36,481 nt of DNA. It comes from Candidatus Aminicenantota bacterium. Lineage in GTDB: Bacteria > Acidobacteriota > Aminicenantia > Aminicenantales > Aminicenantaceae. Position numbers and translations under genes: made by a program. This document shows positions 14,399-20,782 of the stretch, one piece after another. The stretch lies in the NCBI GenBank assembly GCA_011772475.1, contig WVZK01000031.1, positions 1-36,481 of the forward strand. Direction: 5' to 3'. Positions within the stretch are counted from its first letter, which is position 1, and each line of letters starts with the position of its first letter. The notes beneath the pieces are model-generated. The model searched no databases. It saw nothing but the letters and a program-made list of their open reading frames with translations, and was not told the origin of the DNA.

Positions 14399-15313
14399 AT
14401 GAAAGAAAAGATCCTTCGTCTTAACCTATACTTTGGCCTTTTTGGCCTCATATTTTCTGCATTTCTCCTTGTTCTTGATGTGTCTTTTATGAAAACCTGG
14501 TTCTTTTGCTGTTCGTGGTGGTCGTTTATTCTCATAATGGACAGCTTGAACTTTAGGAGAAGTAAGGCCTCACCTCTTTCTATATCTTTGAAGAATTTTC
14601 TTTTTTCAGCTTTCATTTCTGTTCTCGTCTGGCTTATTTTTGAGCTGTTTAATTTAAGAGTGAAAAACTGGACCTATCATGATCTTCCTCCAGGCATACT
14701 TGAAAGGTGGATTGGCTATTTTATTGCTTATGCCTCTGTCATTCCGGCGATGAAAGAGATCTCCCTGTTTGTTCAAAGCTTCTTATCTAAAAGGAAACTT
14801 GCCTTGTTTAGGATAAGAGGAACACCGGTTCTTCTTAAATCGTGGTTTTTTTCAGGAATAATATCAATTATTTTAGTCCTTGCTTGGCCTCGTCTTTTTT
14901 TTCCTTTTGTCTGGCTGTGTTTTATTTTTATGCTTGAGCCGTTGAATTTTTGGCTAAAAAATGAAACTTTATTGAAAGATTTAGAGAAAAAGGATTGGAC
15001 CCGATTCTGGAGCTGGTTATTGGCCGGCCTTGTTGCCGGCTTCTTGTGGGAATTTTGGAATTTTTGGGCAGGATCTCACTGGGAATACTCCATTCCGTAT
15101 CTCAATTTCTGGAGAGTGTTCCAGATGCCCGTTTTTGGTTATACAGGTTTTCTCCCTTTTGCTCTTGAGGTTTTTGCCCTTTACCAGCTTCTTTTTGCTC
15201 TGTACAAGAAATTACAAAGGAAGATCGTTTTCAAAGGTATGATTATTATTCTTTTGCTTGTATTTTACGCTGGAGCCTTTTATCTGATTGATACTTTTAC
15301 TTTTGTTCGTTAA
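14399..15313 (+). CDS. Polytopic membrane protein with internal duplication, unknown function
   Basis: I do not recognise this 304-residue membrane protein. About eight to nine hydrophobic helices are visible and it is very rich in Trp and Phe. Two halves appear related: WSFILIMDSLNF with IFELFNLRVKNWTY in the first half (about 41-92), and CFIFMLEPLNF with LWEFWNFWAGSHWEY in the second (about 171-231). Conserved acidic, Asn and Trp positions at equal spacing inside membrane segments suggest a ligand or cofactor site repeated by gene duplication. The Shine-Dalgarno is poor, so the start is uncertain. It is convergent with the YibQ-like gene and preceded by element E. Confidence 0.7.
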   Translation: MKEKILRLNLYFGLFGLIFSAFLLVLDVSFMKTWFFCCSWWSFILIMDSLNFRRSKASPLSISLKNFLFSAFISVLVWLIFELFNLRVKNWTYHDLPPGILERWIGYFIAYASVIPAMKEISLFVQSFLSKRKLALFRIRGTPVLLKSWFFSGIISIILVLAWPRLFFPFVWLCFIFMLEPLNFWLKNETLLKDLEKKDWTRFWSWLLAGLVAGFLWEFWNFWAGSHWEYSIPYLNFWRVFQMPVFGYTGFLPFALEVFALYQLLFALYKKLQRKIVFKGMIIILLLVFYAGAFYLIDTFTFVR

Positions 15314-15359: not shown

Positions 15360-16559
15360 TTATTTGGTAAGCTGGGAGGCGAAGACGGGTTCGATATTAT
15401 ATTTATCCAGAAGATGAAAGTTTTCCCTTAGGACTCTTAGAGTTCTTTCAGTTGGATGGCAGATGCCTACAGCTTTTCCATTTCTCTGAGCCAAGCGAAA
15501 GAGCTCAATCATTTTTCCTTTTATGTAACCCTTACGGTTTTCTCCGTCAAGAAAAACTTGGCGATAGGCTGAAGGGATTCCGAGTGTTTGGGCAACATTA
15601 TAAGCTTCGGACCTGCTTGTGGTACGACTATCAATAAAAAAAAGATTTCTTTCTTTTAAAGGTCCAAGGACTAAGGATATGAGATTCTTGTCAGCCGTTA
15701 TTTTCGATCCCATATGGTTGTTAACTCCTGTGACGTATGGAATCTGATCGAGATTGTGCTCCACCGTTTTTAGTATTTCCTCTTCGCCCATTTGAGAGAG
15801 AATTATTCCCTCAATGTGGTTTCCTCCCTGGTTATTTATTGATTCAAGAGGAAGATGAAGCATAACTTCCAAATTGTTTTGGTGAGCAATCCGAGCTATC
15901 TCTTTGGCTAGAGGGGTATAGGGAAGAATAGAGATTGTCAAGGGCTTATTGAGCGAGCAGATATCATTGATTGCTTTTAAACTGTAACCCATGTCGTCGA
16001 TGATGATTGCTACTTTGTTTCTAGCTTTTCTTGGAGGAAGTTCTGCCCTTATTTTTTCCTTATGGCTTGCGAAAAGAATACTCAACCTTTGCTTTCTTAT
16101 CCCTTCGACCTGCCACAGATAATAATTCTTTTCTGGGCCGAGTTGTTCTTCTTTTTCTCGGACAGAAGCACTGACTTTATTGAATTCTTTTTCAAGAAGA
16201 GATTCTAGCTCCACGTATTTTTTCAAGGGGAGGTCAATCATAAGATGGAGAACTCCCTTGTTGTCCTTGTACTGTTGATTTGGATCATAGGGTATGTTAA
16301 GCAGGGTTAGACTCTTGATGACAATCTGGTCAAGGGCTTCTTTATCAGGCGGAGGTTCTTGACGAGGCTGAGTTTCCTGACTCAATAGAGCTGCCTTTCT
16401 TCCAAACAGAGAAGCAAAAAGGTAAGATTTTTCTCCATTTTTCCAGCCGATGTAGTCTAAACCGATTGCTGATAAAAGCACCATAAGAGAAAAGATAATA
16501 ATGGTGGAAGGAGGAATGCGATTGGCCTTTTTTCTTTTCTTAGACCTTCTTTTTCGCAT
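15360..16559 (-). CDS. Divergent polysaccharide deacetylase (YibQ family)
   Basis: This 399-residue envelope protein belongs to the divergent polysaccharide deacetylase family (DUF610, E. coli YibQ). A basic N-terminus and one membrane anchor (about 18-40) precede a linker and a helical region; the deacetylase-like domain begins near 180. Visible motifs are KVAIIIDDMGYS (metal-binding Asp pair), MLHLPLE, GVNNHMGSK (conserved His) and VGICHP near the end, so the putative metal site looks intact. The N-terminal 180 residues exceed E. coli YibQ. It starts 22 bases after the S41-like gene and is the third gene of an envC-ctp-yibQ operon, implying a role in cell-wall metabolism or division; the enzymatic activity of the family is unproven. 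Confidence 0.9.
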   Translation of the reverse strand: MRKRRSKKRKKANRIPPSTIIIFSLMVLLSAIGLDYIGWKNGEKSYLFASLFGRKAALLSQETQPRQEPPPDKEALDQIVIKSLTLLNIPYDPNQQYKDNKGVLHLMIDLPLKKYVELESLLEKEFNKVSASVREKEEQLGPEKNYYLWQVEGIRKQRLSILFASHKEKIRAELPPRKARNKVAIIIDDMGYSLKAINDICSLNKPLTISILPYTPLAKEIARIAHQNNLEVMLHLPLESINNQGGNHIEGIILSQMGEEEILKTVEHNLDQIPYVTGVNNHMGSKITADKNLISLVLGPLKERNLFFIDSRTTSRSEAYNVAQTLGIPSAYRQVFLDGENRKGYIKGKMIELFRLAQRNGKAVGICHPTERTLRVLRENFHLLDKYNIEPVFASQLTK

Positions 16560-16581: not shown

Positions 16582-17706
16582 TTAAAGGCTTTTTTTAAGA
16601 TATGTGCTAAGGCTTTGGTCTTCCCCGTTTATTTTTATATCAGGCTTAATTCCTTTTTCCCACAACTTTTCTCCTGACCTAAGATAGAAGATTCCTGAAG
16701 TGAGCAGCAAACCGCTTCCGTCATCCAGGACAAAGATATTTTGTTTGGCCACGAGACCTAAAGTTGGATGCCCGATGATTTTGCCCCTTTTAAATTCTTT
16801 GAGAACTCCGGCTACTGCCTCTGCCGGTCCGATTGTAGCCTGGTTTGTCCAGATAACCAAAGGCAGTTTTTCAAGTTCAGCCTCTTCCGGACAAGAAATA
16901 ATCTCCTTGGTTCTTCCTTTTGTTTCAAAGTAACCTATATTAGGAGATTTTAAGAATAGATTGACGAGTTTTCTGGCTTCTTCAATCTCTCCTTCGTAGC
17001 AATCCCTTAAATCCAAAATAAGAGTCCTTTTCTCTGGCTTTAATCTGGGTATGATTTCCTGTCTTATCTTCTTTACACAAGGAGGATAAAGCTGATGGAT
17101 CTTCAAAATTCCGCTCGTGCCCTTTGCTTCAGCATAGGAAAATGGTTCTTCAAAGAGCAAGGTTCTTTCAACACTCACCTCTTTTGTTTCCTCTCTTTTA
17201 AATATCCTGAGCTTTATGGTTTTCTCATCTCTATCCTTAAGATAGAGATTTGCTTCGGTCATACTCATGGTGAGAGTCGAGCGTCCGTCAATAGAACTGA
17301 TAAAGTCGCCGATCTGGATTCCTTTCTTTTCAGCAGGGGAATTCTCTCTAATTCCGATGACCTGAGGAAAAGAACCGTAGCTTTTGTAAAGGACAATTCC
17401 TATATCCTTCAGGCTTGCCTCCTTGCGCTGGCTATACCTAACCATGCTCTCTTTGTCCAAATAGCTGGAAAGAACGTCCAGGGAATCAACCATTCCTTTA
17501 AAGGCTCCCTTCATTGTTTTATCTGGATTAGCCTCTTCAATGTAATCGTTTTTGATCAATTGGATAACTTTTCCTAGCAACTCAAAATTCCTGTCGGGAG
17601 AAAGCTTTGATAAGAGTCCAGGGAGAAAGCTTTTTTCTAGCAAGAAGAAGAGAAAGACCAAGACCAGTACGGCAAAAAGGAGTATTCTTGCTCTTTTTTT
17701 GTTCAT
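16582..17706 (-). CDS. S41 (CtpA-like) peptidase homologue lacking the usual catalytic Ser/Lys
   Basis: The 374-residue protein has the carboxy-terminal processing protease plan: N-terminal membrane anchor or signal (about 8-27), a helical segment, a PDZ domain (about 90-170, NSPAEKKGIQIGDFISSIDGR) and an S41 core (LILDLRDCYEGEIEEARKLVNLFL). In active CtpA/Tsp proteins the serine lies in S-A-S-A-S-E and the lysine in TFGKG. Here the aligned segments read TIGPAEAVAG (near 288) and PTLGLVAKQ (near 311), placing Gly and Leu at those positions. It is therefore probably a pseudo-protease or uses other residues. It lies between the EnvC-like and YibQ-like genes, 34 and 22 bases away, as in the known envC-ctp-yibQ arrangement. 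Confidence 0.85.
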   Translation of the reverse strand: MNKKRARILLFAVLVLVFLFFLLEKSFLPGLLSKLSPDRNFELLGKVIQLIKNDYIEEANPDKTMKGAFKGMVDSLDVLSSYLDKESMVRYSQRKEASLKDIGIVLYKSYGSFPQVIGIRENSPAEKKGIQIGDFISSIDGRSTLTMSMTEANLYLKDRDEKTIKLRIFKREETKEVSVERTLLFEEPFSYAEAKGTSGILKIHQLYPPCVKKIRQEIIPRLKPEKRTLILDLRDCYEGEIEEARKLVNLFLKSPNIGYFETKGRTKEIISCPEEAELEKLPLVIWTNQATIGPAEAVAGVLKEFKRGKIIGHPTLGLVAKQNIFVLDDGSGLLLTSGIFYLRSGEKLWEKGIKPDIKINGEDQSLSTYLKKSL

Positions 17707-17740: not shown

Positions 17741-18916
17741 TCATTTCAGCCATTGCAAGGGATTAAGGGGCTTTGTCTTGAATCGAATTTCAAAATAAAC
17801 AGAGTCTCCTTCAAAAGAACCGATATCGCCGACAAGGGCGATCGGTTGCTCAGCTTTGACCAGGACGCCCTTCTTGACCAATATTTCTGAGCAATGACCA
17901 TAGAGCGAATAGTAGGACATTCCGTGATCGATAATGATGAGGTTGCCGTATCCCTGGAAGTAGTCAGAGTAGACGACTTTGCCAGGATGGATAGATCTAA
18001 CAATGACATAGTTCTTTTTGGGTGAAATTTCGATTCCGTTATTCATCGTGGTCGTTTTAAATTGAGGATGCCTCTGGAGCCCAAATTTGGTGGTGACGTT
18101 TCCCTCGATAGGCCAAGGAAGTTCCCCTTTTTTCTCGTAAAGAGGGATTAAATTAATAGGAAAAGTAATTTCTTCTTTAAGTAATCTTTCTATCAAAATT
18201 AACAACTGTTGAGCTCTTACTTTTAACTCATCTAAGGTTTGAAGATGTAGTTTCTTGTTTTTCTTTATTTCTGATATAAGGGCTCTGTTCTTTCTTTCCT
18301 GAGCTTGGAGTTCTTTCCTTTTCTTCTCGGCATTCCTTATCAAACGCGAAGCCTCCGTTTTTTTCGTTTTAAGCTCTTTTTGGGCTGTCTCCAGTTTATC
18401 CAAGGTTTCCATATAATTTGAGATAATTCTTTCCTGATACTGAGCCAAAATAGTCAAATTCTTATTCTCGGAAATAAGAGTTCCTACGTTTTCTGCCTGA
18501 AGCATGAATTGGAAAAAGTTAAATTTTCCGAATTTATAGGTGGTGATGAGTATTTTCTCGATAGATTGCTTTTCCTCCTCTAGCTTTGCTTCTAGCTTGG
18601 GAATGCTTTTGTTCAATGAAGAAAGCTCACGATTTGCTTTTCCCAATTGGATAGAATAAAGGGAGATTTCTTTTTTGATAAGTCCCTTGTTAAATCCAAT
18701 CCTATCCAGCCGGGAAAGAGTGCTTGATTCCTTTTTTTCCTCTTCTTCTATTTTCAGCCGTAGCTGCTCTATCTGTTGGGAGATTTTCGCCAGGCGTTCT
18801 TGGTAATCGGAAACATCCTGCTGGCCACGGGCATTCAGAGAGATAATGAGAATAAGGGTGATTGAAATTCCGAGGAAACAGTAGGATTTCTCTAGCGCCT
18901 TCTTACACAACTTCAT
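17741..18916 (-). CDS. EnvC-like coiled-coil protein with degenerate LytM domain
   Basis: This 391-residue protein has a signal/anchor segment (about 11-31), a long coiled coil (about 34-245) and a C-terminal LytM/M23 domain (about 265-391). EnvC-type proteins do not cut peptidoglycan themselves; they activate amidases at the division site. The metal-binding residues of active M23 enzymes are lost here: HNGVD-like reads NNGIEI, and the HLHFE-like motif reads DSVYFEIR, while YGHCSE keeps its His. That matches E. coli EnvC, which also ends with a [LV]YFEIR motif. It is first in the operon; a promoter sits directly before its ATG and there is no Shine-Dalgarno. Confidence 0.9.
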   Translation of the reverse strand: MKLCKKALEKSYCFLGISITLILIISLNARGQQDVSDYQERLAKISQQIEQLRLKIEEEEKKESSTLSRLDRIGFNKGLIKKEISLYSIQLGKANRELSSLNKSIPKLEAKLEEEKQSIEKILITTYKFGKFNFFQFMLQAENVGTLISENKNLTILAQYQERIISNYMETLDKLETAQKELKTKKTEASRLIRNAEKKRKELQAQERKNRALISEIKKNKKLHLQTLDELKVRAQQLLILIERLLKEEITFPINLIPLYEKKGELPWPIEGNVTTKFGLQRHPQFKTTTMNNGIEISPKKNYVIVRSIHPGKVVYSDYFQGYGNLIIIDHGMSYYSLYGHCSEILVKKGVLVKAEQPIALVGDIGSFEGDSVYFEIRFKTKPLNPLQWLK

Positions 18917-19048: not shown

Positions 19049-20782
19049 TTATATCTCTCGTTTTTTTCCATAAAAATACTTGGTTGTCACTTTTCCAACC
19101 AACCCGGCTAAAAGAAGAAGGGACAACAAGTTAGGGAAAGCCATAAAAGCATTGGCTACATCTCCTATGTACCAGACTATGTAGCGGTGTGGACCCTGAA
19201 TGATAGAGCCGATGAAAAGCAGGATGATGAAAGCAACTCTGTAAGGATAGATTATCCTGATTCCAAAGATATATTCCAGGCATTTTTCTCCATAGTAGCA
19301 CCATCCAAGAAGAGTAGAATAGCCAAAAAGAAAAGAGCAAAGAGCAATGATGTATCCTCCATAAGGAATGACAGAGCCAAAGGCATCTGCTGTTAGCGCC
19401 GTGGATGTTAGAGCTCTTGGGTCGCCGTAGGCAGCGGTTTTGATGTAGCTTCCGGTTATGACAATGGTCAGAGTGGTCAGCGTATTAACGACCAAGGTAT
19501 CGATGAAAGTCCCGGTCATAGCGATGAGTCCGTTTCGAGAAGGATCTTTGGATTTTGATGCAGACTGAGCAATTCCGGCTGAACCTAGTCCAGATTCGTT
19601 GGAAAGCAGACCTCTCCTAATACCTTGGCTAATAGCAAGTTTTATAGTAACTCCTACCATACCTCCTCCCACAGCTTTTACAGAGAAGGCTGATGTAAAG
19701 ATCGTGGTGAGAGCTGCGGGCAAGTCAGTGATCCTTGCCAGGATGATAACGATGGCTCCTCCGAAATAAAGAATGATCATGGTCGGAACCAGTCGCTCAG
19801 ATACCATTCCGATTCTCTTGATCCCGCCCAATATAACCGCTCCCACGATGCCTGTGATAACCAGTCCGCTTATCCAGAAAGGAATTTGGAATTCTTTGTT
19901 AAAGACCAGAGCCATTGAATTGGATTGCATCATGTTCCCTGTGCCTAACAAGCAGGCTACGGCACCACAGATAGCAAAAAACATGCCCATGAATTTGGCT
20001 AAATGCTTGTTCTTGATGCCGTTGCGGGCATAGTACATGGGCCCTCCGGACATCTCTCCGCGTATATTCTTGATCCTGAATCTGACTCCTAAAAATCCCT
20101 CAGCATACTTTGTTGCCATGCCAAAGACACCGGCTATCCACATCCAAACAGGAGCTCCTGGTCCACCAACAGCGATGGCAGTAGCCACCCCGGCGATATT
20201 GCCGTTGCCAACGGTAGCAGCCAGAGCAGTCATCAAAGCCGCATAAGGAGATATGTCTCCTTCCTCTTTATCCGGCCTATCCTTTCCTAGGGCTCCCCGC
20301 AACACCATCTTCAGGGATAGGATTAACCTTCTAATTTGGATGAGGCGGGTGAGATAAGTCAGCAGGATGCCTGTCCCTAAAAGAAGGGCGATCATCCAGT
20401 AACCCCACATGAAGTCACTTGCTTTTGTGATGAAAATGAGTATTTTATCCAAAATAGAAAGGGAAATAGTGAAGCTAAGCTCCAGTGTTTCTGCTTTGTC
20501 TTTTATCTCTATCTCTTCTTCGAAGGGAGTCAATTCATAGAGATCCATTTTGATGATGTATTTTCCTGGCCTAAGATCGCTGTACGTAAAATTTCCCTCA
20601 GGATCAAGAGCGGTTTCGGAAAAGTATTCCTCCTCCAGGGGTTTTAGAAGCACGATCCCTTCAGTGTACGGCTCTCCTTTAGGAGAAAGGATAACCTTGC
20701 CCTTGATATCAGCTGCATTAAGGGTTTGAAGACTCGTCAAACACAGAAAAAATAAAATGATGGCTAAAGTTTTTTTCTTCAT
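19049..20782 (-). CDS. AGCS sodium:amino-acid symporter with exported N-terminal regulatory-like domain
   Basis: The C-terminal 465 or so residues form an alanine/glycine:cation symporter of the AGCS family, moving small amino acids with sodium. Family motifs are clear: ALMTALAATVGNGNIAGVA, GGPGAPVWMWIAG, FGMATKYAEGFLGVR and SNESGLGSAGIA. Most relatives have GTGN where this protein has GNGN. Unusually, the protein begins with a signal peptide (1-24) and a beta-sandwich of about 85 residues resembling the carboxypeptidase regulatory-like domain (GKVILSPKGEPYTEG; LDPEGNFTYSDLRPGKY). At 577 residues it is about 100 longer than usual. GGAAG precedes the ATG, nine bases after the SNF-type transporter, so the two are cotranscribed. 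Confidence 0.88.
   Translation of the reverse strand: MKKKTLAIILFFLCLTSLQTLNAADIKGKVILSPKGEPYTEGIVLLKPLEEEYFSETALDPEGNFTYSDLRPGKYIIKMDLYELTPFEEEIEIKDKAETLELSFTISLSILDKILIFITKASDFMWGYWMIALLLGTGILLTYLTRLIQIRRLILSLKMVLRGALGKDRPDKEEGDISPYAALMTALAATVGNGNIAGVATAIAVGGPGAPVWMWIAGVFGMATKYAEGFLGVRFRIKNIRGEMSGGPMYYARNGIKNKHLAKFMGMFFAICGAVACLLGTGNMMQSNSMALVFNKEFQIPFWISGLVITGIVGAVILGGIKRIGMVSERLVPTMIILYFGGAIVIILARITDLPAALTTIFTSAFSVKAVGGGMVGVTIKLAISQGIRRGLLSNESGLGSAGIAQSASKSKDPSRNGLIAMTGTFIDTLVVNTLTTLTIVITGSYIKTAAYGDPRALTSTALTADAFGSVIPYGGYIIALCSFLFGYSTLLGWCYYGEKCLEYIFGIRIIYPYRVAFIILLFIGSIIQGPHRYIVWYIGDVANAFMAFPNLLSLLLLAGLVGKVTTKYFYGKKREI

Follow-up and report, generated by a model that had tools for sequence, protein, structure and literature searches.

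The window, a 36,481-nucleotide stretch from a Candidatus Aminicenantota bacterium (phylum Acidobacteriota), carries on its minus strand an envC-like gene, a gene for a relative of the C-terminal processing peptidases (CTPs) in which the catalytic residues are replaced, here called the pseudo-CTP, and a yibQ/sddA gene (Table 1). The reading frame of the pseudo-CTP gene is intact from ATG to TAA over 374 codons, and its product has the architecture of the S41A CTPs in one chain, with a CtpB_N-like region (PF22694), a PDZ domain and a Peptidase_S41 core (PF03572) that all score above the Pfam cut-offs. With the NCBIfam family TIGR00225 (prc, C-terminal processing peptidase) it reaches 142.2 bits, below the curated cut-off of 218.6, the match covering nearly the whole chain. 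The preliminary description had considered the frame to be intact and the PDZ domain and overall fold to remain, and both statements hold, the fold being recovered by hhalign with a probability of 100, except that the PDZ loop corresponding to G-L-G-I has lost its first glycine. The single-protein scan found six named Candidatus Aminicenantes relatives. An AlphaFold prediction for the window protein with six relatives, based on a shallow alignment, gave a pLDDT of 38 and a pTM of 0.32, too low to lend support to any structural claim.

Table 1. Features of the envC-ctp-yibQ locus in the window (residue numbers refer to the pseudo-CTP).
Feature	Position	Strand	Remarks
envC-like gene	17741..18916	-	Coiled coil and M23/LytM domain (Pfam/NCBIfam); 34 nt upstream of the pseudo-CTP gene
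Pseudo-CTP gene, 374 aa	16582..17706	-	N-terminal hydrophobic anchor (probable), N-terminal dimerisation region, PDZ, S41 core; catalytic residues replaced
Hydrophobic N-terminal segment, residues about 8-26	17629..17685	-	From sequence
N-terminal dimerisation region, residues 40-86	17449..17589	-	CtpB_N-like, PF22694 (Pfam); His84 position is Leu79
PDZ domain, residues 101-182	17161..17406	-	Pfam; GLGI carboxylate loop reads KDIGI
S41 core, residues 190-360	16627..17139	-	Pfam; D232, R234, G239, E296, G312 and G317 kept
Thr291 codon	16834..16836	-	Canonical Ser at this position; T-x-G is a pseudo-CTP signature
Gly293 codon, GGA	16828..16830	-	Catalytic Ser position
Leu318 codon, CTC	16753..16755	-	Catalytic Lys position
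yibQ/sddA gene	15360..16559	-	Divergent polysaccharide deacetylase, PF04748 (Pfam); 22 nt downstream of the pseudo-CTP gene; metal ligands present

None of the N-termini of 39 orthologs contains a lipobox and none of the eight inspected contains an AxA site; the hydrophobic segment is probably an uncleaved membrane anchor. At the other end of the chain, the C-terminal dimerisation region of the Pseudomonas aeruginosa CtpA hexamer (strand 370-376 and helix 418-435) is missing. Residue 356 corresponds to CtpA residue 365, and the chain stops 18 residues further on, before the helix, which the CtpA hexamer needs (PMC8764530).

The first His and the Asp of the metal-binding set in the LytM domain of EnvC are replaced by N and E, both in the window and in most relatives, which is consistent with a role as activator rather than endopeptidase; an E. 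coli EnvC sequence served in this alignment only as a marker. The metal ligands of YibQ are retained in nearly all of 132 loci. The adjoining envC and yibQ genes link the pseudo-CTP to the EnvC-SddA module, and the genome also encodes FtsE-FtsX, located elsewhere, and two Amidase_3 proteins. In two members of the class, the genes preceding envC had been considered as ftsEX candidates, but Pfam assigned them to other families. In E. coli, SddA (YibQ) is a septal protein that deacetylates denuded strands, and its excess causes cell chaining as if the amidases were impaired (PMC12440217). The P. aeruginosa operon has the order envC-ctpA-PA5135, and cell-wall hydrolases are substrates of its CtpA (PMC12569750).

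Two further genes in the window deserve mention. A sodium:alanine symporter (19049-20782, minus strand) has about 110 extra residues at its N-terminal end, with the Pfam match beginning at residue 169, and we read the extra stretch as resembling a carboxypeptidase-regulatory-like beta-sandwich. A membrane protein without any Pfam or NCBIfam match is encoded convergently to yibQ (14399-15313, plus strand); a similar-looking open reading frame lies on the strand opposite to the operon at positions 1195-2101 of a locus from another family of the class (L107, genome G100).

The window protein resembles CtpA of P. aeruginosa (PA5134), which is encoded between EnvC and YibQ/SddA genes, in domain order and, as judged by sequence, in fold. 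CtpA has the residues Ser302, Lys327 and His84 and degrades cell-wall hydrolases together with LbcA, whereas the window protein lacks all three residues. Three alignments, namely phmmer to CtpA, a profile to the CtpA structure 7rpq (E 7e-54) and an hhalign profile-profile alignment to canonical acidobacterial CTPs, agree in placing Gly293 at Ser302 and Leu318 at Lys327, in line with the preliminary description. The motif T-I-G-P-A-E falls on S-A-S-A-x-E, with glycine at the catalytic Ser in third place, and T-L-G-L on T/S-F-G-K, with leucine at the catalytic Lys, and the canonical spacing of 25 residues between the Ser and Lys sites is preserved. The damage extends beyond the dyad: the oxyanion-loop motif D-L-R-x-N-x-G-G is changed to D-L-R-x-C-x-E-G, altering the Asn and a Gly, and leucine replaces His84, a residue that assists catalysis in CtpA (PMC11021448). 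The CtpA helper residue is His84 or Gln331, neither of which is essential (PMC11021448); the window protein retains the Gln331 equivalent, but within the order it is found in just 64% of the sequences. The frame residues of the S41 core are retained beside the lost dyad, while W286 and L318, which by alignment lie near the former active site, are new residues specific to the order.

It has been shown that S302A and K327A each abolish the activity of P. aeruginosa CtpA (PMC11021448). The window protein lacks what defines an active S41A peptidase, the Ser-Lys dyad, and has Leu at the position of the helper His84. It is almost certainly a true pseudoprotease and should be unable to cut peptides by the S41 mechanism. 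A substitute pair of catalytic residues was also considered and rejected. The lysine three residues past the Lys site, K321, which had been named as the residue that might restore a competent dyad, is found in 38% of the order and in 2% of the sequences elsewhere, and there is no conserved Ser nearby.

The loss is fixed among the orthologs. Of 60 sampled relatives, 59 contained a match to the window protein, mostly a clear ortholog. The 86 aligned orthologs from the order, down to about 38% identity, all lack both Ser and Lys at the catalytic positions, the first being Gly in 97% and the second Leu in 98%, and Thr is found at position 291 in 97% of the order and in 50 of 51 sequences from elsewhere. 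Adding these 51 relatives from the rest of the class and the phylum, neither the Ser-Lys pair nor His84 was found in any of 137 sequences, whereas all three residues are present in each of 16 canonical CTPs (14 acidobacterial proteins plus the CtpA proteins of P. aeruginosa and H. pylori). Twelve class members from outside the order lack the dyad as well, with M/F, L/F, L/M or E/L at the two sites and one case of Ser with Ile. The L107 protein looks like an intermediate: it retains the nucleophilic Ser, but Lys is replaced by Ile and His84 by Asn. Since the dead residues are common to the 86 orthologs, a sequencing error or decay in a single strain can be dismissed.

For an unbiased view of the phylum, 297 genomes were searched for the PF04748 deacetylase and the genes upstream were read in 40 loci, so that the sample was selected by yibQ and not for dead copies of the Ctp. 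A Ctp was found upstream in 34 of the loci, in most of them with an EnvC match before it, and the envC-ctp-yibQ order is conserved across the order and in most of the yibQ-bearing loci read from the phylum. Thirty of the 34 proteins could be aligned through the active site, and none has Ser and Lys. The other four, from family f11, are too diverged there; the Ctp encoded between envC and yibQ in this family has about 345 residues, a badly diverged active-site region and several conserved cysteines. Of the remaining loci, two show no Ctp, and in four class members from genera g49 and g50 of family f12 envC directly adjoins yibQ and the ctp gene is missing. These two families indicate that the pseudo-CTP is dispensable in some lineages. 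The loss of the dyad holds for every alignable operon Ctp of the phylum and is not peculiar to the window genome.

In 20 further genomes, nearly all of which were picked because they lacked a yibQ match, 16 encode a second CTP of shorter length, in which Gly occupies the Ser site and Lys is never present at the other; among the longer, canonical CTPs, those amenable to alignment retain Ser and Lys. No EnvC match lies beside the pseudo-CTP in the nine yibQ-less Acidobacteriota genomes whose surroundings were read, which indicates that EnvC need not be its sole partner. One genome contains the three-gene unit twice: its second pseudo-CTP (G008, contig C8, 18489-19604), with its own envC and yibQ, is 60% identical to the window copy.

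To place the pseudo-CTPs among their relatives, we inferred trees from 63 pseudo-CTPs and 16 canonical CTPs. One branch separates the two sets with an SH-aLRT support of 100, also when the active-site columns are left out, and EnvC-linked and other CTPs of other phyla take an intermediate position, with the pseudo-CTPs on one side and the acidobacterial canonical paralogs on the other; these are quick, unrooted trees with some long branches. Against the pseudo-CTP profile, CTPs of other phyla score higher (175-187 bits) than the canonical acidobacterial paralogs (131-162 bits). The simplest reading is that the pseudo-CTP descends from the operon's own Ctp and that catalysis was lost early in the phylum. 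A recent loss is ruled out by a single clade that spans the phylum.

The preliminary description had suggested that the protein is conserved though inactive, and the substitution pattern bears this out. The Nei-Gojobori dN/dS values between the window and close relatives are 0.15-0.18 for ctp, 0.13-0.14 for envC and 0.16-0.18 for yibQ; the pseudo-CTP is under purifying selection, like envC. In an alignment of 39 diverse orthologs, 24 columns are invariant. Within the order, Leu occupies the Lys site almost without exception, and elsewhere in the phylum many residues occur there (R, W, F, M, E and T among them), so that the site is constrained locally but not phylum-wide. The intact frame, the purifying selection and a dead site that is fixed across relatives are those of an S41 pseudoprotease.

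The pattern is reversed in six envC-ctp-yibQ operons of Hyphomicrobiales (records of Sinorhizobium, Rhizobium, Shinella and Methylobacterium, our sampling having covered the Acidobacteriota and a few plasmid-collection records). The Ctp keeps Ser, Lys and His84 in all six, and YibQ lacks most of its metal ligands (IVVGGLG, ILLQVPME and similar). The expectation that a Ctp next to EnvC is active in other bacteria is in agreement with these operons, where it looks active, and with the P. aeruginosa mutants. ATU2773 of Agrobacterium also lacks the zinc ligands yet stays with envC, and a regulatory role has been proposed for it (PMC12440217). ATU2773 and its relatives in the Rhizobiaceae thus resemble the window operon in retaining a catalytically dead enzyme beside envC, but there it is the deacetylase (SddA/YibQ) that is dead and the Ctp that is intact, the opposite of the situation in the window. 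With the Ctp dead in the Acidobacteriota and YibQ dead in the Hyphomicrobiales, the operon can evidently keep either enzyme in a dead form. EnvC itself, a degenerate-LytM activator encoded in this operon, already exemplifies a regulator built on a dead peptidase fold, although it has an M23 fold that acts on AmiA/AmiB and not an S41 fold.

We suggest that the pseudo-CTP is a membrane-anchored, non-proteolytic adaptor in the EnvC/SddA module that controls the septal amidases, a reading to which we assign a probability of roughly 0.55. It is favoured because the dead protease is fixed and under selection and because its two neighbours, the activator and the deacetylase, each act on the septal amidase system. 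The protein would dimerise through its N-terminal region and, held at the membrane, would bind EnvC and/or SddA, perhaps by the former substrate tunnel, the cleft or the cap. Instead of degrading its clients, as active CtpA would do in other bacteria, the pseudo-CTP would position or restrain EnvC or SddA and may thereby control the activation of the amidases or the access of SddA. The altered carboxylate loop of the PDZ domain argues against a classical binding of C-termini. The earlier proposal of a scaffold that regulates EnvC is plausible and is the one that we favour, but the nine yibQ-less genomes weaken the case for EnvC as a universal partner, and the loss of the gene in g49 and g50 also speaks against the adaptor role.

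A different function would be that of an inactive regulatory protomer whose partner, joined through the N-terminal dimerisation region, is the cell's own active canonical CTP. The genomes examined encode canonical CTPs as well as pseudo-CTPs, only the N-terminal of the two dimerisation regions survives, and half of the CtpA protomers in the solved LbcA-CtpA complex, the back ones, are inactive (PMC11021448). We nevertheless regard such a pairing as unlikely, since canonical CTPs are also found in three genomes without a pseudo-CTP match, the two genes lie on different contigs of the window genome, and by score the pseudo-CTPs are nearer to CTPs linked to EnvC in other phyla than to canonical paralogs from their own phylum. 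Slightly less probable again is that the empty S41 cleft has been reused to hold a lipid, a glycan or another small ligand, as in RBP3/IRBP, where an S41-like fold serves without proteolysis to bind retinoids. Both the single sequence and the profile matched RBP3, the frame residues are kept, and the order-specific W286 and L318 have arisen near the former active site by alignment, but beyond the order the Lys site shows a free variation that would not be expected of a conserved binding pocket, and the PDZ domain has been retained. Moreover, RBP3 is a multi-module retinoid carrier of vertebrates and not part of a division operon.

The absence or degradation of the gene in families f12 and f11, and the frequent changes at both active-site positions within the phylum, would suit a relic that is translated through its operon position and has no function of its own. 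This is quite improbable given purifying selection close to that on envC, intact frames over many genera together with the invariant columns, the replacement of Lys by one near-invariant Leu in the order, and the retention of the gene even where envC is not adjacent. Least credible, to the point of being highly improbable, is a protease with a non-canonical catalytic set, such as a displaced Lys acting with Thr291. Both Thr291 and Glu296 hardly vary, but the scarcity of K321 leaves no conserved Lys near the site, His84 is lost, the oxyanion loop has been altered, and single substitutions of Ser302 or Lys327 suffice to abolish the activity of CtpA.

Pseudoproteases as such are already known. 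No acidobacterial or other bacterial S41 pseudoprotease was found in the literature (open-licence papers), and we found no earlier description of a branch of bacterial CTPs that is dead in the greater part of a phylum. The label "S41 family peptidases" is misleading for these genes in a large set of genomes. The adaptor reading can be widened, doubtfully, to an ancient, phylum-wide non-proteolytic Ctp that regulates the EnvC-amidase module, in an operon that might tolerate a dead protease or a dead deacetylase because both mainly bind EnvC/FtsX rather than catalyse. The results turn an oddity of one genome into a testable question, namely what role the Ctp between EnvC and SddA has besides proteolysis, and the reversed pattern in the Hyphomicrobiales suggests that non-catalytic functions of both Ctp and SddA matter in the control of the septal amidases.
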